A DNA stretch of 44,545 nucleotides, taken from Chitinophagaceae bacterium. GTDB lineage: Bacteria; Bacteroidota; Bacteroidia; Chitinophagales; REEL01. The position numbers and the translations under genes are program-made. Below the pieces are notes generated by a model. That model had not been told where the DNA came from. It worked only from the letters and a program-made list of their open reading frames with translations, and ran no database searches. Of the stretch, positions 33,055-44,545 are shown in pieces. The stretch covers positions 1 through 44,545 of the forward strand of contig REEL01000083.1 of NCBI GenBank assembly GCA_007695095.1, in the 5' to 3' direction. The first letter of the stretch is position 1. Every line of letters begins with the position of its first letter.

Positions 33055-33714
33055 ATGAAAAAAATAACATTATTAATCATAGTTGCCACTATACAATTTG
33101 TCTCATGTACCGGAAGTGTAGAATCATCTGTAAACAAAACCAACACCGAATCTGATGATCAACCGAAACTTAAAGAAGTAGATGTAGCTGATGCTGAAAC
33201 AATCTCAGATTATGTAGAAGAAATAAAAGAAAACTTAGGTGAAGTTCAATTGTCAGTAGTAAGCAGTACTACTTATTTTTCACCCGGTGAAAATGAATCT
33301 GATTTTTTAAGCATTCAATTGGTAAACAATACAGGAAAAAGCATTACTTTGCCCAAAAACTTACTCAAAAACTTAACACTAACCGGACAAGGTTCATCTC
33401 AAAGATTTCCATTAACTCTCAATATTATTAAATATCCGGAAAGCAGTATAAAAGAAGAAGTCACCTTACAATCCGGAGAAAAAATAGAACTCATTCGCTT
33501 TAGCTATCGGGATTTATTTTATGAGCACAAGCATCTGACAGGCCGAGATCGTCAAGCTCGTTGGATTTGGGACTGGGAAGCGGCAATGATGGCTCCCCCC
33601 TCACCTATGCAAACCGGTGACTCTTTTGAAAACGAAGTGGTATTCAGTGCAGAGTTAATGCTAGAAAACAAGGAAATAAAAAGTGAAAAAATAACTTTAG
33701 ATATCAGGCCTTAA
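33055..33714 (+). CDS. Hypothetical lipoprotein
   Basis: The product is 219 aa. The signal KKITLLIIVATIQFVSCTG gives a lipobox with Cys19. An acidic linker (about 20-65) leads to a beta-sandwich-like domain: GEVQLSVVSSTTYFSPGE, LSIQLVNNTGKSITLPKNLL, then PLTLNIIKYPESS and VVFSAELMLENKE. The layout recalls Ig-like exported domains, but no family was recognised. It ends overlapping the convergent proteasome-like gene by four bases. Function is unknown. Confidence 0.65.
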   Translation: MKKITLLIIVATIQFVSCTGSVESSVNKTNTESDDQPKLKEVDVADAETISDYVEEIKENLGEVQLSVVSSTTYFSPGENESDFLSIQLVNNTGKSITLPKNLLKNLTLTGQGSSQRFPLTLNIIKYPESSIKEEVTLQSGEKIELIRFSYRDLFYEHKHLTGRDRQARWIWDWEAAMMAPPSPMQTGDSFENEVVFSAELMLENKEIKSEKITLDIRP

Positions 33715-34502
33715 ATTATCTCTTCACTATAACTTGAAGGAGTAAGTTTAGCGCTGATTATAGGCTTACCACAATCAGGCACCATTATGGCAAAACGTTG
33801 ATAATCACAGGTAAAATCAACTAAAAATCGAGTGTAGTCAACTGCATCAGCCAATGACAATAATTCATACTGCCCCTGTATTGGCGGTAAATTGGATTTT
33901 TGGTTTACTAAATGAGAGATAAATTCGGTTCTGCCTATCCAGCATCCTCCAAAACGTGCGCTTCCTTTAGTATTTCTCCACCTAACTATATGACCGCTGT
34001 CATTTAGATTATTATCTATCATAATTTTTCCCGAAAAAACCATGTGAGACTCAATTCTGGGTTTTGAAACATCTTTATTTTCATAACCTGCTATTATAAA
34101 ATCAACGGATAAACGCTGAGTGGCATTCTTTAGCTCCTCTGTTCCAAGCTGAACCTGCATTTGTTTTTGCACACCATGTACAAAATACTTTACAATTGCG
34201 TCATAATTATTTTCACCTTCATAGCTTGCTTCAAGTGATTTAAAAAGAGAATAAATCGTTTTATGATTTAAAATTGCGGTTCCGGCTACACATACTCCAA
34301 ATATGGAATCCTGAATTTTTATATCAAAAAGCTTTCGGGCCATTTTAGACCAGGATATTGGTTGTTGAATCGGCTTTTCTAATGACACTATCCTGCCGGT
34401 GCCGGCTTCTTTAACCTGAGTGATTGTCTGATTCCAGGTAGTTTGACTATCTGCCGCTAAGGCTATGCCGTCCGGAACGGCTATTGCTATACAAATTGAC
34501 AT
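33711..34502 (-). CDS. Proteasome-fold Ntn hydrolase, probable Ser nucleophile
   Basis: The product is 263 aa. Its start matches proteasome beta-type chains: SICIAIAVPDGIALAADSQT. With Met removed, Ser becomes residue 1 and Asp becomes residue 17, exactly the spacing of Thr1 and Asp17 in proteasome beta subunits. Further parallels are a Lys in SKMARKLFDIK, corresponding to Lys33 after an insertion of about 23 residues; FGVCVAGTAILNH, like the AGxAAD loop; VDFIIAGYENK; and GCWIGRTEFISHLV, like the IGSG helix region. There is no propeptide. HslV and Anbu are known bacterial relatives; no HslU partner is nearby. The gene is solitary and overlaps a convergent lipoprotein gene. Peptidase activity is inferred, not certain. 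Confidence 0.7.
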   Translation of the reverse strand: MSICIAIAVPDGIALAADSQTTWNQTITQVKEAGTGRIVSLEKPIQQPISWSKMARKLFDIKIQDSIFGVCVAGTAILNHKTIYSLFKSLEASYEGENNYDAIVKYFVHGVQKQMQVQLGTEELKNATQRLSVDFIIAGYENKDVSKPRIESHMVFSGKIMIDNNLNDSGHIVRWRNTKGSARFGGCWIGRTEFISHLVNQKSNLPPIQGQYELLSLADAVDYTRFLVDFTCDYQRFAIMVPDCGKPIISAKLTPSSYSEEII

Positions 34503-34600
34503 TTATTACTAGTTTTAATTTATTGAAGAACGAACTTAATATTTTTTCTAAACAACTTCCAATTAATTGTGTTTTTCAAGTCTTTACAAACTCAGATTTG

Positions 34601-34637: not shown

Positions 34638-35372
34638 TTGGAAAATAAATTTAAAGTATTTGAAGAAATAGTAAATGACCGGCGCTCTGTGAGAGTTTAC
34701 GATTTAGAAACTCCTTTTGATCATGATATTATTCAAAGTTGCCTGGAAAATTCAGTCTTATCTCCTAATTCCAGCAACTTACAATTATGGGAATTTTACC
34801 GAATTATTTCTCCGGAGGCAAAAAAGAAAATGACTACTTTTTGTTTAAATCAACCGGCCGCAGCAACATCCAGAGAAATGGTTGTTTTTGTCAGCAGGCC
34901 TGATAAGTGGAAAGACAGACAAAAGGAAATTGTATCTCAACTGGAAAAGCAATTTCCAACTTTAACGAAAGCTGAAAGAGCAAAAAACGGAGCTTTTAAA
35001 TATTATGAGCAAATCATCCCAATGCTATACAGCAGAAGATTAGGCTCTCTAAGTGATTTTGTAAAAAAAATCATCGTAAATTTCAGAGGCATGAAAAAAC
35101 CGACTCCTCGTGAGGTCACCCATACAGATATAAGAATTTCAGCGCACAGAAGCATTTCTTTGGCTGCCCAAACATTTATGCTCGCCGTAAAAGCGGCAGG
35201 CTATGACAGTTGTCCAATGGAAGGGCACGATTCAAGCAGAATTAAAAAGTTTTTGAATTTACCTAAAGAAGCTGAAATCAATATGGTGATAAGTGTTGGA
35301 TTGGGAAAACCTCAGGGCATTTACGGCCCCCGCTTCAGAGTTGATAATAAAAAAGTAATCTTTGTAAAATAA
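34638..35372 (+). CDS. Nitroreductase family FMN protein
   Basis: The product is 244 aa. The start is TTG at 34638: the reading frame has an upstream stop (ATG AAT CAA TAA region) and no earlier ATG, while the next residues MENKFKVFEEIVNDRRSVR contain the family's opening RRSVR, an FMN-phosphate contact. Other family parts are CLENSVLSPNSSNLQLWEFY, RISAHRSISLAAQTFMLAV and GYDSCPMEG near the C-terminus, and LGKPQG. These enzymes use FMN and NAD(P)H to reduce nitro groups, quinones or enones. Substrate unknown. It ends at 35372, immediately beside the convergent hemerythrin gene. Confidence 0.85.
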   Translation: MENKFKVFEEIVNDRRSVRVYDLETPFDHDIIQSCLENSVLSPNSSNLQLWEFYRIISPEAKKKMTTFCLNQPAAATSREMVVFVSRPDKWKDRQKEIVSQLEKQFPTLTKAERAKNGAFKYYEQIIPMLYSRRLGSLSDFVKKIIVNFRGMKKPTPREVTHTDIRISAHRSISLAAQTFMLAVKAAGYDSCPMEGHDSSRIKKFLNLPKEAEINMVISVGLGKPQGIYGPRFRVDNKKVIFVK

Positions 35373-36178: not shown

Positions 36179-36673
36179 TCAAGTATGAATCGTTTCAAAA
36201 ACGCCTGTTTTGTAATTTTTCTGAACATTATCCCAATTAAAATAACGACCATTCATTACAATGTAGACTCCCGGAGGTAAAAGTTGAACATAACCCATCG
36301 CATTCCCTAAATTAAAGAATCCGTCAGATGAACCAAATTTATAAGGGATTAACGCTCCTGTTAACACTATTGTTTTATTTATATTATACTTAGCTATTAC
36401 GGAAGCTGTTTTGACCATAGTATCAGTACCATGCGTAATCATTATCTTATCTCTTTCTGCGCGTTGACAATTTTCTGCAATTAATTGTCTGTCCATATCA
36501 CACATTTCCAGACTATCAACCATCATTAAAGTTCTTACTTCTACATTTAAAGTACACTTACCGAGCTTAAGCAATTCGGGCAAATGCGTATCCTTAAAAT
36601 AAAGCTTACCATTGATTTCATCATACTCTTTATCAAAAGTCCCGCCGGTTACATATAATCTGATTGGTTCCAT
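36179..36673 (-). CDS. Asparaginase N-domain-like protein, single domain
   Basis: The product is 164 aa, the length of only the N-terminal domain of L-asparaginase (about 330 aa). Catalytic parts of that domain are present: Thr12 in VTGGTFDKEYD, the MITHGTDTMVKTA motif (Thr83, Asp84) and TGALIPYKFGSSDG with the expected Lys. The C-terminal domain and its substrate contact are missing and there is no downstream remnant, so this is a naturally short family, known from other bacteria, not a recent truncation. Asparaginase activity is uncertain. A -7 box lies so close to the start that its message may have almost no leader. Confidence 0.8.
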   Translation of the reverse strand: MEPIRLYVTGGTFDKEYDEINGKLYFKDTHLPELLKLGKCTLNVEVRTLMMVDSLEMCDMDRQLIAENCQRAERDKIMITHGTDTMVKTASVIAKYNINKTIVLTGALIPYKFGSSDGFFNLGNAMGYVQLLPPGVYIVMNGRYFNWDNVQKNYKTGVFETIHT

Positions 36674-39215: not shown

Positions 39216-39600
39216 TGTTTTTGCAGTTAAGTTTGGAAGTTTTTCTAAGTTCGACTTCTACTTGTTTTGACTACCTTCAACACAAGATGCTCAGTGTACA
39301 CACTGCCTCTATCAATGAATCCCTAAACTGATAAATAAAAACAATGCCGCATCCCTTCTGCAAAACGGCTTCTTTATGGTCTTTCTGCTTGGAGTTTAGA
39401 ATACAAAAGCTAAAGCCTACCGTGCCGTAAGTCGGGCCTTGAGGAGTTGTCCAATAAAACAAGAAAACCGGAACGCTTAGACTATGAGAAGAAAATGGAC
39501 AGAGAACAGCCTCACACCACACCGTCATTGGTAGATTCAACAGGGGAGCTTTACGGGCATGCTTGAAGTGTGACAATCTCCTGATTAGGTGCATGGGCTA
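39216..39600. other. Unidentified G+C-richer block
   Basis: This stretch differs visibly from its AT-rich surroundings in base composition and contains small GC-rich complementary segments (for example GCCG ... CGGC near 39345-39367). One frame on the minus strand stays open for about 106 codons (39277-39594) but encodes no recognised domain. It could be a structured RNA, a decayed mobile element or a transferred fragment. I cannot decide between these. Confidence 0.35.
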
Positions 39601-39798
39601 TCAAAAAGTTTTATAATGCCCTTATAACCCTTTTATTAATAAGAAAACCCCTCCTCCATTCTGTCATGCCGGCGTCAGGAAGCATCTCCGTATTAATTGG
39701 GAGACTCTACTCTTCACTAGCAATAAGAGTGACGACCGGGTTCAGAAAGCTCCCAATACACTTGCCATCGAAACAGTTAATTGATAGGCAGATAGGTG

Positions 39799-39992
39799 GC
39801 TGAGCGGAGTCGAAGTCAACTGACTTGAAATTATGAAAATCTAACTTAAAAAATAGCATTAGACCATTAAATGCCAGCCGGAGGCTGCTCAACACTTACG
39901 CTCGCGAGACGCAGAGCGAAAGCGGTTTTCTCTTTAATAAGTACTGCCTTCGACTTACTACGACTCTGCTCTGTACAGGCCGCTCAGGCTAC
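39799..39992. repeat. MITE-like degenerate inverted repeat
   Basis: GGCTGAGCGGAGTCGAAGTC at 39799-39818 faces a broken reverse complement at 39946-39992 (CCTTCGACTTACTACGACTC ... GCCGCTCAGGC). Repeats of this kind, built around CTTCGACT and CGCTCAG, are widespread between genes in Bacteroidota. The arms are interrupted, so the unit is probably old. Confidence 0.45.
39875..39925. repeat. Dispersed repeat, second copy (pairs with 137-181)
   Basis: It begins CAGCCGGAGGCTGCTCAAC and ends AGAGCGAAAGCGG; 137-181 begins CAGCCGGAAGCTATTCAAC and ends GGAGCGAGAGCGG. The orientation is the same in the window. Confidence 0.55.
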
Positions 39993-40017
39993 GGCGATGC
40001 CAACCGGAGGGAGCTCC

Positions 40018-40110
40018 CCTCACATTTTCCATTTTCCATTTTCCATCATAATTTTGACATTTTTCTTCCTTGGGCCTTGGCCTTCCTGAAATTTGGGCTC
40101 TTGAATCTTT
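40018..40110. repeat. CATTTTCC tandem run and GAGCCC repeat text
   Basis: CATTTTCC is repeated in tandem and runs into ATTTTCCATCATAATTTT (40038-40055), the reverse complement of the core of the 22358/22466 direct repeat. TGAAATTTGGGCTCTTGAA follows near 40087 and is the reverse complement of text near 22394-22414. Confidence 0.6.
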
Positions 40111-40377
40111 CTCCCTTGTAAATTCCTGAATAAATAAAAAATCAATTTTAAATCTCTATCAAATATCAAGCCAATTTTAATTTTACAAAAAATATTGAAA
40201 ATTGTAATTTTTAAATAACCACCAATTATATCTTTTTAAACTAAAAATACTTTCAAAAAAACGCCAGACTAAGTGTATACAACAGCATCAGCATTTACAT
40301 AACCAAAACAACTAATAACATTTGTATATACTAATCTTAAAAGTGGTTATAAATCTGAATAAAATATCGTAAAAAAC

Positions 40378-40408
40378 TTGTATTGTTAAAATATTGATAG
40401 TATCTTGC
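40378..40408 (+). promoter_or_regulatory. Predicted promoter of the giant T9SS gene
   Basis: TTG (40378-40380) and TATCTTGC (40401-40408) are separated by 20 bases, the preferred distance for Bacteroidota -33 and -7 elements. The -7 box is a variant of TAnnTTTG. The leader would be about 55 bases. Confidence 0.4.
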
Positions 40409-40468
40409 AATGGAAACAGTTAATCAAGCAAGAAACTTTTTCATCATACACACTATAAAATCAAGCTT

Positions 40469-43400
40469 ATGAAATGTTACTTACACCTTTCTCTTTTTCT
40501 CATTTTGGGAATTTGCGTATCAGCACAGACAGGTCCCGGAGGTATCGGTAATTCCGATAACAATGTCCTTTGGCTAAAAGCAGATGGAGACGTTGATATT
40601 ACTATTCAGGATCAAAGAATTAATACGCTATATGATATGTCCGGTCGGGAAAATCATGCCATACAAAACATAACCGGACAAAGACCGGTATTAGGAACCG
40701 GTGGTAGAAACGGAAAGCCATATATTGATTTTCAGGGAATCTGGGAGTATCTAGTAATTCCTGATAAGGGATATTCTACCGGTTTAGACAGTATATCAAA
40801 TTTGACGATGTACACTATGATAGTTCCTACAGATGTTCAAAACTCCAATTCTGCAGCAGATGCACAGGCTATATTGTCCAGAAGAAACCCCAATGTTTCT
40901 AACCCCTGGAGCAGTTCATCTTATGCTTTTTTATTCTGGAATAACCGTCAGTATATGGCTGATATAAACGGTGACCAACATAGAAATAACAATAGAACAC
41001 CGGCAGGTTCAATTATAAATGATACTCCTTATATACTGGGGACTATTTTTGATGGCAGTCAAAGTCAGACGACAAACTGGATTAATGGCTCTTTCTCTGC
41101 CAGAGGTAATGAAGGAAGTAATGAAAATTTCATAGCCAGAAATGAATGGCCATTGACAATAGGTGCGTTGGACTCGAGTGCAACGGCTCAATATAAATTG
41201 TTTGAAGGCCAAATTTATGAAATCATAATGTTTAGTGATTCTTTAAATAAAACACAAAGAATAATTTTAACAAACTATTTGGCATCTAAATATGATGTAA
41301 ATATTGGAAGCAGAGACAGATATGCACACGATGCGTTTGGAACAGGCAACTGGTTCGGAAATGATGTAGCCGGTATTGGATTAGAAAGTGCAGCTGGTAA
41401 TGATAAACATGTTTTTGGGTTTTCAGACATTTTAGGAGTAGGAAATCCTTCTCAAATGATTGGATCTCAAGACGTTGGCAATTATTTACTTATGGGTCAT
41501 GACGGTAATCCAAAATCAAGTATTATAAATTCAATCTCCGGCAAAAGTGATGTTAAAAGAATAACTAGAATGTGGAGATTAGATGAGACTGAAAGTAACA
41601 GTCAGACAAATCCAACCGGTGTAGGAACTGTTTCTTTTTTCGTAAAAGCAGATGAAATGCCTCCTTTGCCAACCGGCTTAACTTCTTATTCTATTTTAGT
41701 AGCTTCTAACCGAGATTTTGATAGTAATTTAACCATATATGAATTAGCATTAGACAGTAATGGTCTTTATTATCAGGCAGATGATATTTCTTTTGAAGAC
41801 GGAGATTTTGTAACTATAGGCGCTTTCCGTCCGGAGATGCGTTTTACACATCCGGTTGCCAGTACTTTTGAAAATCAAGGTCCTGCACAAATTGAAGTCA
41901 CTCTTAACTATGTTCCTGCTAATGAAGTAACGGTTGACTATTTTACAACTGCCGGTACAGCTAACCCGGGAAATAACCCTGTTTTATTTGGTGATCCAAA
42001 TTCTGCATGGCAGCTTCAATGCGAACATGATACTGTTCAACTAGCTTTTAATGGGTTTATAATAGAAAAAGAAGATTATGCAGATACTTCAGGTACTTTA
42101 ATCTTTGATCCCGGTGAAAAAATTAAGTATATATATGTCGACATATGGGACAATGGCTGCTTTGACGGTACCAGAAATTTTAATGTAACATTAGATAGTA
42201 CAAGCGTTTCACCATCATCTGTAAATATAGTATCGGGTAATCAAACCCACAATATTCTGGATGATGATGAAGGACGTTTAATTCAATTTACTACCGATAG
42301 TTCTTTTGTAACGGAAGGAGATATCACTTATTTAGAGGTAGAAATTACTTTAACTTCTTCCTCAAATACGCCAATAGAAATGGATATTTACAATATAATC
42401 AACAGTACTACAGCAGTTTTAGGAGTTGATTATGATTTTGACCATACTTATACCACTCAGGCATTTGCCGGTGAGTTTTTACACACGGCTACTATTACTA
42501 TTCCTGCCGGAGACAGTATTTTTGATTTCAGAGTTGAAATTATAGATAATGATATCTTTCAATTAGAAGAATATTTAGCACTTAAAATAGATGCACCATC
42601 AACCGGTGCAAGAATTAAAGTAGACAACACTTCCTTTGATTTTGCAAAGCACGTAATTCAAATAGATGATAATGATCCATTTCCGGTAGTTAGTTTTGTT
42701 GCAGATACATCCAGTGGATGTGAATGTCTGGCTAACCCTCAGTTTGAGTTAAAAATGGATAGAAGAGCTTCTGTTCCTATTGAAGTGAACTGGTATGCAT
42801 CAGACATTTCAGCCAGAAGAACCGGATCTAAACTGGATTATTATATTTCAGGAGCAAGCACCTTACGTTTTGAGCCGGGCGACACAACCACCTTTATAGA
42901 AGAAATTGTAGTTATTGACAATACAAAGGAAGAGCCGAATCGCTGGATTGACATTTCATTAATAGATAATGCTCAGTATGCAACTATCGGCGCAATTGAT
43001 ACACACAGATACACTATTATAGATGACGATATTTGGGGTATAACCGGTCCCGGTGGAGTAGGAGATTCAATATATAATATAGTATGGTTGGCAGCAGATA
43101 TTTTAAATTTGAACGATGGTGACGCAATTTCAGAATGGGTAGATCAGTCAGGTAACGAAAATGCTGCCATAAATAGTAGTGGAAATCAGCCGGTTTACAG
43201 ACCGTCCGGTGCGTTCTTTAATGATAAGCCTTATATTGAGTTTGATGGCTCTGCTAATCCTTTAGAAATACCAAATAATCAGATTTTTGATTTTTTAACG
43301 GAGACTACTATATATGCAATAGTAAAACCGAATGCAAATAACCAGAGTGACTTGGTGCCAATTGTTTCGAAAAGAGTTAGTTGGAATAATCAAAATGCTT

Positions 43401-44545
43401 ATTCAATGTTTTTTAACTCCAGAAGATTTGTATCTGACTTTAATTCAGATAATCAAAGAAGAGAATCTAATCAACAATTTAATCTTTCTGAGTTGAACTC
43501 ACCACAAATGTTGAGCATTTCCTATAAAGGATCCAATGTTGGTGCTGATAGAAATGAAATGCGTATCGATGGTGCAGAAATAGCTTACAGGAACAATCCT
43601 AATTATTCACAGCCTTACATAGTGAATTCAACCGCACCATTCAGAATTGGTCAGATGACAGGAAACACAACTCTTGCCAGAATGGATCTCGCTGAGGTGT
43701 TAGTTTTCAGAAGTGCTCTTAATGAAGCCAGAAAGCGAATTGTTGAAAATTACTTATCAGCTAAATATGGCATTTCCATTCCGAACAACTATTTCCAGTA
43801 TGAAACTTCTCATTCTTTTGAAGTAGCCGGAATTGGAAGAGTAAGCGAAACCAGTCTACATAATAATGCGAGAGGATCTGCAATTTTAACAATTGGAATG
43901 CCTCAAAACCTTGAAGATGGTGAGTTTATGATTTGGGGTCATGATAATTCCGGATATTCAAACGATACTGTAGATGTACCGGCTTTAGTTAGCGAAAGAA
44001 TTGAGCAGGTATGGAGAATATCAACCTCTAAAAATGGCGTTTTTGGAACAGCCAATATCGGTACTGTAAGAGCAACTTTTGATGTTGAAAACATTCCATT
44101 ATTACCTGATCATGAGTATGTGTTATTAATAAACAACGATTTTGATAATGATTCCACATTTACAAATGCATTTATCCAATCAAATGGAGTCTTTAATCCA
44201 ACAAGCGGACAAGTACAGTTTAATAATACAAACTTCTCAGACGGAGATGCCTTTACTTTAGGTCAGGCTCAAATAACTCCACTACCGGTTGAATTGATTG
44301 CATTTGATGCAGTGAAGGAAGGTACTGCCGTAAGTGTTTACTGGGCAACTGCTACAGAGATAGATTCTGATCACTTTATTGTAGAAAGATCAGCTAATGC
44401 TGAAGATTATAAAGCTATAGAAATAGTAGAAGCCGCCGGAAACAGCGTAGAAGAAATCTTCTACCAAGTAAAAGATGAAGATCCTTACCACGGAGTAAAC
44501 TATTACAGATTGAAGCAAGTAGACTTTGATGGCTCTCACGAATAC
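40469..44545 (+). CDS. Giant T9SS-type surface protein with LamG-like and Calx-beta-like units, 3'-truncated by window
   Basis: The frame is open from the ATG at 40469 to the window edge, 1359 codons without a stop. Signal peptide about 1-20 (ending VSAQ). Two large units repeat: each begins with a concanavalin/LamG-like domain (VLWLKADGDVD near residue 34; IVWLAADILN near 871) containing DMSGRENHAIQ or DQSGNENAAIN and ending in NYLASKYDV or NYLSAKYGI, followed by a domain with AGIGLE or AGIGRV and MWRLDE or VWRIST. Between them (about 465-850) lie Calx-beta-like segments (ENQGPAQIEVTLNYV, VTEGDITYLEVEITL). After residue 1270 comes a fibronectin-like LPVELIAFDA ... NYYRLKQVDFDGS, which normally leads into a type A sorting domain, here beyond the edge. 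Probably an adhesin or surface-layer type protein. Confidence 0.85.
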   Translation, partial: MKCYLHLSLFLILGICVSAQTGPGGIGNSDNNVLWLKADGDVDITIQDQRINTLYDMSGRENHAIQNITGQRPVLGTGGRNGKPYIDFQGIWEYLVIPDKGYSTGLDSISNLTMYTMIVPTDVQNSNSAADAQAILSRRNPNVSNPWSSSSYAFLFWNNRQYMADINGDQHRNNNRTPAGSIINDTPYILGTIFDGSQSQTTNWINGSFSARGNEGSNENFIARNEWPLTIGALDSSATAQYKLFEGQIYEIIMFSDSLNKTQRIILTNYLASKYDVNIGSRDRYAHDAFGTGNWFGNDVAGIGLESAAGNDKHVFGFSDILGVGNPSQMIGSQDVGNYLLMGHDGNPKSSIINSISGKSDVKRITRMWRLDETESNSQTNPTGVGTVSFFVKADEMPPLPTGLTSYSILVASNRDFDSNLTIYELALDSNGLYYQADDISFEDGDFVTIGAFRPEMRFTHPVASTFENQGPAQIEVTLNYVPANEVTVDYFTTAGTANPGNNPVLFGDPNSAWQLQCEHDTVQLAFNGFIIEKEDYADTSGTLIFDPGEKIKYIYVDIWDNGCFDGTRNFNVTLDSTSVSPSSVNIVSGNQTHNILDDDEGRLIQFTTDSSFVTEGDITYLEVEITLTSSSNTPIEMDIYNIINSTTAVLGVDYDFDHTYTTQAFAGEFLHTATITIPAGDSIFDFRVEIIDNDIFQLEEYLALKIDAPSTGARIKVDNTSFDFAKHVIQIDDNDPFPVVSFVADTSSGCECLANPQFELKMDRRASVPIEVNWYASDISARRTGSKLDYYISGASTLRFEPGDTTTFIEEIVVIDNTKEEPNRWIDISLIDNAQYATIGAIDTHRYTIIDDDIWGITGPGGVGDSIYNIVWLAADILNLNDGDAISEWVDQSGNENAAINSSGNQPVYRPSGAFFNDKPYIEFDGSANPLEIPNNQIFDFLTETTIYAIVKPNANNQSDLVPIVSKRVSWNNQNAYSMFFNSRRFVSDFNSDNQRRESNQQFNLSELNSPQMLSISYKGSNVGADRNEMRIDGAEIAYRNNPNYSQPYIVNSTAPFRIGQMTGNTTLARMDLAEVLVFRSALNEARKRIVENYLSAKYGISIPNNYFQYETSHSFEVAGIGRVSETSLHNNARGSAILTIGMPQNLEDGEFMIWGHDNSGYSNDTVDVPALVSERIEQVWRISTSKNGVFGTANIGTVRATFDVENIPLLPDHEYVLLINNDFDNDSTFTNAFIQSNGVFNPTSGQVQFNNTNFSDGDAFTLGQAQITPLPVELIAFDAVKEGTAVSVYWATATEIDSDHFIVERSANAEDYKAIEIVEAAGNSVEEIFYQVKDEDPYHGVNYYRLKQVDFDGSHEY

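Follow-up and report, generated by a model that had tools for sequence, protein, structure and literature searches.

What does a protein with a proteasome fold and an N-terminal serine do in a bacterium that appears to carry it alone? The question is raised by P0001, whose gene lies in a 44,545-nucleotide stretch of contig REEL01000083.1 from a Chitinophagaceae bacterium (hereafter the window). An initial annotation had read it as a possibly new, self-contained Ntn peptidase or amidase. Our analysis places P0001 as a real further member of the already described, uncharacterised proteasome relatives, and not as a new kind of system. We consider it probable that it is a stand-alone proteasome-like Ntn enzyme of the PMI type, which would act on a restricted set of substrates without a dedicated ATPase.

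The gene and its putative catalytic residues

The gene lies on the minus strand, within exactly the coordinates that the initial annotation had given (Table 1), and its predicted product starts MSICIAIAVPDGIALAADSQTTW. Removal of the start Met is expected since residue 2 is Ser; with the Met removed, residue 1 is Ser and residue 17 is Asp. The Lys of the 'ARKLF' motif lies 39 residues past this Asp, whereas proteasome Asp17 and Lys33 are 16 apart; the insertion put earlier at about 23 residues is therefore exactly 23. The claimed alignment of Ser1, Asp17 and a later Lys with the proteasome triad was confirmed, and so was the claimed lack of a propeptide: the in-frame TAG-TAA-TAA abutting the ATG leaves no possibility of a propeptide or N-terminal extension. 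On these features of the sequence, the exposed mature Ser1 is probably the catalytic group.

Table 1. Features of the P0001 locus (positions in the window).
Feature	Position	Strand	Basis or remark
Gene of proteasome-like protein P0001, 263 aa	33711..34502	minus	ORF reading
Start codon ATG of P0001	34500..34502	minus	
Stop trio TAG TAA TAA, in frame, immediately ahead of the ATG	34503..34511	minus	
Ser2 codon (mature Ser1), proposed nucleophile	34497..34499	minus	Invariant in 6 orthologues; Thr in most distant relatives
Asp18 codon (mature Asp17)	34449..34451	minus	Invariant in 23/23 aligned sequences
Residues 22-51, extended S3/S4 region with the 23-residue insertion	34350..34439	minus	Modelled long beta-hairpin and Asp-Lys spacing
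Lys57 codon (proteasome Lys33 equivalent)	34332..34334	minus	Invariant in 23/23 aligned sequences
Gly74 codon in 'VAGTA' (oxyanion Gly47 equivalent)	34281..34283	minus	Invariant in 6 orthologues; N in some distant phage relatives
Convergent downstream neighbour, 219 aa, without Pfam family	33055..33714	plus	Overlaps the P0001 stop by 4 bases
Divergent upstream neighbour, nitroreductase family	34638..35372	plus	

A search of genome contigs recovered five close relatives, 57–62% identical to P0001 in the best segments. Four of the five come from Bacteroidota (Belliella alkalica, a Bacteroidales MAG, a Chitinophagaceae MAG and another Bacteroidetes MAG) and the fifth from a Dehalococcoidia MAG (Chloroflexota). 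In the alignment, Ser, Asp17, Thr21, Lys, the oxyanion-type Gly and the length of the insertion are kept in all five, which bears out the homologue check that had been proposed. The position of proteasome Ala49 is occupied by Ala in most orthologues and by T in the Dehalococcoidia copy. A codon comparison of the Belliella and Bacteroidales MAG pair (dN 0.062, dS 0.894, dN/dS ~0.07) shows, as far as this pair represents it, that the family is under purifying selection. Where distant relatives share a C-terminal 'VGG-[IV]D', the orthologues have 'DCG[KR]PI'. With this replacement the S10 part of their active site may differ; the S10 side may thus be specialised in the orthologues, and the choice of acceptor or substrate may differ as well.

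The divergent nitroreductase gene and the convergent 219-aa gene indicate that the P0001 gene is monocistronic, and the genes around it in the window are ordinary chromosomal genes. Elsewhere in the window, an asparaginase ORF (36179–36673) comprises just 164 aa and the N-terminal domain alone, and may be truncated or frameshifted. A 340-aa ORF at 1353–2375 resembles an IS4-type transposase by eye. The stretch 39277–44545 is poor in ORFs (none of at least 110 aa starts past 39205); GC rises to 0.46 at 39.5–40 kb, and the stretch is possibly an rRNA operon.

Predicted fold and distant relatives

The HMM comparison proposed by the initial annotation gave a divided answer: P0001 matched PF00227 with an E value of 0.0013 in the whole-library search, but its 18.8 bits fall under the curated cut-off of 22.4 bits. 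It is because of this score that automated annotation misses the protein. Searches of NCBIfam, PHROGs and PADLOC returned no match for P0001, and a sequence search against solved structures returned no relevant one.

AlphaFold2 with the six close orthologues only produced a poor model (pLDDT 54), which was set aside. The model used was built from a 23-sequence alignment of the window protein and related loci (pLDDT 84.7, pTM 0.80). Its N-terminal part consists of S1 (3–9), S2 (12–18), two hairpin strands (22–31 and 38–51) and strands 58–63 and 66–74. Helices 83–93 and 100–119, a strand-rich middle, helices 193–200 and 217–237 and two final strands follow, the chain ending in strand 258–262. 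H1 and H2 are both modelled. About 16 residues, partly of low confidence, separate helices 193–200 and 217–237, and confidence in the hairpin is moderate (block means 68–88).

The predicted alpha-beta-beta-alpha fold was borne out, the model being of proteasome type. In a Foldseek search of the PDB the best match was Anbu (5loy, E 2.8e-8, probability 1.00), with 20S subunits next, also at probability 1.00; 171 chains matched at E<=0.001, and all 50 of the matches listed were proteasome or Anbu chains. The best match in a viral structure library was a Siphoviridae protein named proteasome beta subunit. Superposition on solved structures gave an rmsd of ~6–10 Å and TM scores of 0.4–0.5 by query length. 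A TM score near 0.5 together with a large rmsd points to real divergence, and for this reason the model says nothing on ring formation. Model and alignments support the fold and the catalytic residues well; activity, substrate and oligomeric state we infer.

Distant relatives of P0001, ~27–31% identical and starting with Thr1 or Ser1, occur in two genomes of the same order and in one prophage. Profile–profile comparison linked them to the P0001 family with 99.5% probability (E 1.7e-22), while reversed-profile controls against the P0001 family reached <=3.4%. The kinship claimed earlier with Anbu and HslV stood in part. Anbu is supported structurally, and its profile match is weak (19%, E 0.001), though still above that of the accepted Anbu–HslV pair. 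For HslV the hhalign probability was 0.98%, on a scale where those accepted homologues reach just 2.7%.

Three of the relatives have features of their own. The prophage relative (L018:5001–5798, the same protein as L007 in genome G251) has Ser1 and lies beside terminase and a SocA/Panacea antitoxin-like gene; its S3/S4 insertion includes a zinc-knuckle-like motif, CPNCG, which is absent from the window protein. A relative in G820 (L016:934–1911) is split across two frames, possibly as a frameshifted copy or through a sequencing error. One more distant relative, in G353 of the same order, has the Ser start, the insertion and the Lys.

A family of ~400-aa phage-borne proteins starting with MTAEIAI, found in 34 viral contigs, aligns with the P0001 family at both ends. 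The N- and C-terminal cores are homologous and the equivalents of D18, K57 and F59 are invariant; these proteins differ from P0001 in having Thr1, an Asp–Lys spacing of 16–23 and large insertions elsewhere. The spacing is 16–20 in nearly all sampled members and in many exactly the canonical 16. Such near-canonical spacing makes the 23-residue insertion of P0001 secondary, and on this alignment it is best read as an addition to the canonical core. By its length, insertions and occurrence in phages, compared with the published description, the ~400-aa family is probably PMI-4. Prophages and satellite phages commonly carry its members (loci L080–L113 and L037–L039). Streptococcus phage Javan85 has such a gene as its last, at the genome end behind holin and lysin, where accessory genes typically lie. 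On a Rhizobium gallicum plasmid (L037, 2113–5901) the gene lies ~1.4 kb from genes for a multiubiquitin-domain protein and a ThiF (E1-like) protein.

Distribution and genome content

A search of 396 genomes of the phylum and 349 of the order recovered the close form from the window's own genome only; distant relatives turned up in a few genomes. No close relative was found in the phage, plasmid and viral collections searched, including IMG/VR. Between the Belliella protein and that of the Bacteroidales MAG, identity is 88% despite hosts from different orders, which could reflect recent transfer or MAG contamination. Taken with the Dehalococcoidia copy, this identity suggests that the patchy spread of the family is due to horizontal transfer, with MAG binning errors a possible contribution.

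The initial annotation had seen no HslU nearby, and this extends to the whole genome: the best match to the HslU profile, a 412-aa frame of ClpX size, scored 100 bits where the cut-off is 362. The window genome yielded no other PF00227 protein, and four of the five other host genomes gave no PF00227 match either. The Belliella genome encodes two further PF00227 proteins: one is of HslV type, the other resembles Anbu in size and score; the P0001 orthologue is therefore no simple replacement for HslV.

No flanking gene common to the orthologue loci was found. The Belliella neighbours (L002:7138–10733) are an unknown 301-aa protein, a SLATT_4-like protein with two TM segments, whose SLATT_4 match lies just below the cut-off, and a HATPase_c_3 protein; together they resemble a defence island. 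In the Dehalococcoidia MAG (L006:6802–7905) the orthologue and a ThiF-family gene converge, an arrangement seen at no other orthologue. In the literature collection searched, nothing came up on a defence role or on later work on PMI-6.

Relation to known proteasome-like proteins and possible function

The suggestion that P0001 might be a new type of enzyme was overtaken by published work. Fuchs, Alva and Lupas described in 2021 22 new stand-alone proteasome-like families with Thr1/Ser1, Asp17, Lys33 and Gly47, without propeptide, AAA+ partner or informative context, and with function and partner known for none in that paper (PMC8665760). PMI-5 and PMI-6 have an insertion at the S3/S4 site, as does connectase, and PMI-6 was reported from Bacteroidetes among others (PMC8665760). 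PMI-2 to PMI-6 are characterised by an H3/H4 insertion as well, the interval in which the P0001 model has its stretch of about 16 residues, partly of low confidence. P0001 has the beta-like core fold and the Thr1/Ser1, Asp17, Lys33 and Gly47 equivalents by which proteasome-like families in the wide sense are recognised there, and its 23-residue S3/S4 insertion agrees with PMI-5 and PMI-6. Like the PMI families it stands alone, has no propeptide and no known partner, and is patchily spread, with probable horizontal transfer; like PMI-6 it occurs in Bacteroidetes. The insertion is modelled as a beta-hairpin, in contrast to two helices in PMI-6 (itself a prediction) and an unstructured segment in PMI-5. 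The P0001 family has a clear sequence link to proteins that match the published PMI description. Judged by these published descriptions, sequence and model fit the PMI group best.

Four other placements were rejected. Anbu is the nearest solved fold (5loy, 5nyg, 5nyw) and shares the lack of a propeptide and the Asp and Lys equivalents; it starts with Thr1, lacks an S3/S4 insertion and carries a C-terminal helix H5 that forms a coiled coil, whereas P0001 has Ser1 and the insertion, lacks H5 and is modelled to end in a strand. HslV shares the Ntn fold and the catalytic triad, but neither membership nor a partnership with HslU is tenable given the genome content and the profile comparison, and P0001 has neither a propeptide nor a TT start. 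The 20S beta subunit resembles P0001 in fold, in the Asp17, Thr21, Lys33 and Gly47 equivalents and, for most orthologues, in Ala at the Ala49 position. P0001 differs from it in Ser1, the 23-residue insertion and the S10 motif; the genome holds no alpha subunit or other PF00227 gene, and a propeptide is impossible. Connectase likewise has its insertion at S3/S4, close to the active site, but there the insertion is a two-helix element, and H1/H2 are lost; P0001 is modelled with a hairpin at this site and with both H1 and H2.

By analogy with these proteins, the best reading of P0001 is an N-terminal-serine peptidase or peptidyl transferase. Methionine aminopeptidase would strip the start Met and expose Ser1. 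With Asp17 and the Lys33 equivalent in place, the alpha-amino group of Ser1 would activate the Ser1 hydroxyl for attack on a peptide (amide) bond, and the Gly47 equivalent would form the oxyanion hole. As in homologues, an acyl-enzyme would form and be resolved by water or another amine. The modelled S3/S4 hairpin, at the position of the connectase specificity element, would limit access to the active site, and the enzyme would take a limited range of proteins or peptides as substrates, with no dedicated AAA+ ATPase. From the model and the connectase analogy we infer that the hairpin is a lid confining the enzyme to particular substrates, which is the weakest step of the mechanism. In Anbu, also without a propeptide, the start Met is removed, Thr1 is exposed, and epoxomicin and MG132 bind to Thr1 (PMC5666114). 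Anbu was inactive on standard peptide substrates despite complete active-site residues (PMC5666114), and this inactivity counts against a catalytic reading of P0001, as do the S10 motif change, the large rmsd of the model and the moderate confidence in the hairpin.

P0001 could instead be a self-compartmentalising general peptidase, assembling into a BPH-like ring or double ring, or into a split ring like the Anbu dodecamer, and degrading unfolded proteins or peptides without an ATPase. Ring-forming subunits share this fold, the model includes both flanking helix pairs, and Anbu is the nearest solved structure. We nevertheless regard this as unlikely: a rare and patchy distribution speaks against housekeeping proteolysis, P0001 is without the Anbu-like C-terminal helix, and its chain is longer at S3/S4 and apparently also between H3 and H4, while insertions in some such families look incompatible with stacked rings (PMC8665760).

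We give little credence to an origin as an accessory gene of a phage or genomic island (a moron, or a defence or counter-defence gene) whose product would process one specific protein while a phage infects the cell. The prophage relative beside terminase, the viral contigs including Javan85, the effector-like, sub-threshold SLATT_4 protein and HATPase next to the Belliella copy and the patchy spread across Bacteroidota and Chloroflexota all point that way; the lack of close relatives in the viral and plasmid collections searched, the lack of a PADLOC match, the ordinary chromosomal neighbours in the window and the lack of a conserved partner at orthologue loci point the other way.

Two further readings fare worse. 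Acylases likewise use a Ser nucleophile and the Ntn fold, and the S10 motif of P0001 is unlike that of distant relatives, so that a non-peptidase Ntn amidohydrolase or acylase on small molecules might be considered. It is very unlikely, since the fold matches listed fall in the proteasome-like branch only, the Asp17 and Lys33 equivalents are those of that branch, and no metabolic operon surrounds the orthologues. A catalytically inactive P0001, comparable to proteasome alpha subunits, is scarcely credible even with an S10 motif altered from that of distant relatives, because none of Ser, Asp, Lys and Gly varies across orthologues and Ser1 is unblocked by any N-terminal extension.

The most far-reaching reading of P0001 is a bacterial counterpart of connectase: a monomer with a beta-hairpin lid over its N-terminal Ser that cuts and rejoins one specific protein sequence and has spread horizontally between Bacteroidota and Chloroflexota. 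The two-helix S3/S4 element of connectase covers its active site (PMC8665760). We think this reading improbable; if true, P0001 would be a site-specific protein ligase or processing enzyme. P0001 is small, rare, highly conserved and single-copy. It has a putative Ser nucleophile and a lid-like hairpin where connectase has its specificity element, and no partner gene was found for it. These features make it a tractable starting point for exploring the function of lone proteasome-like proteins.
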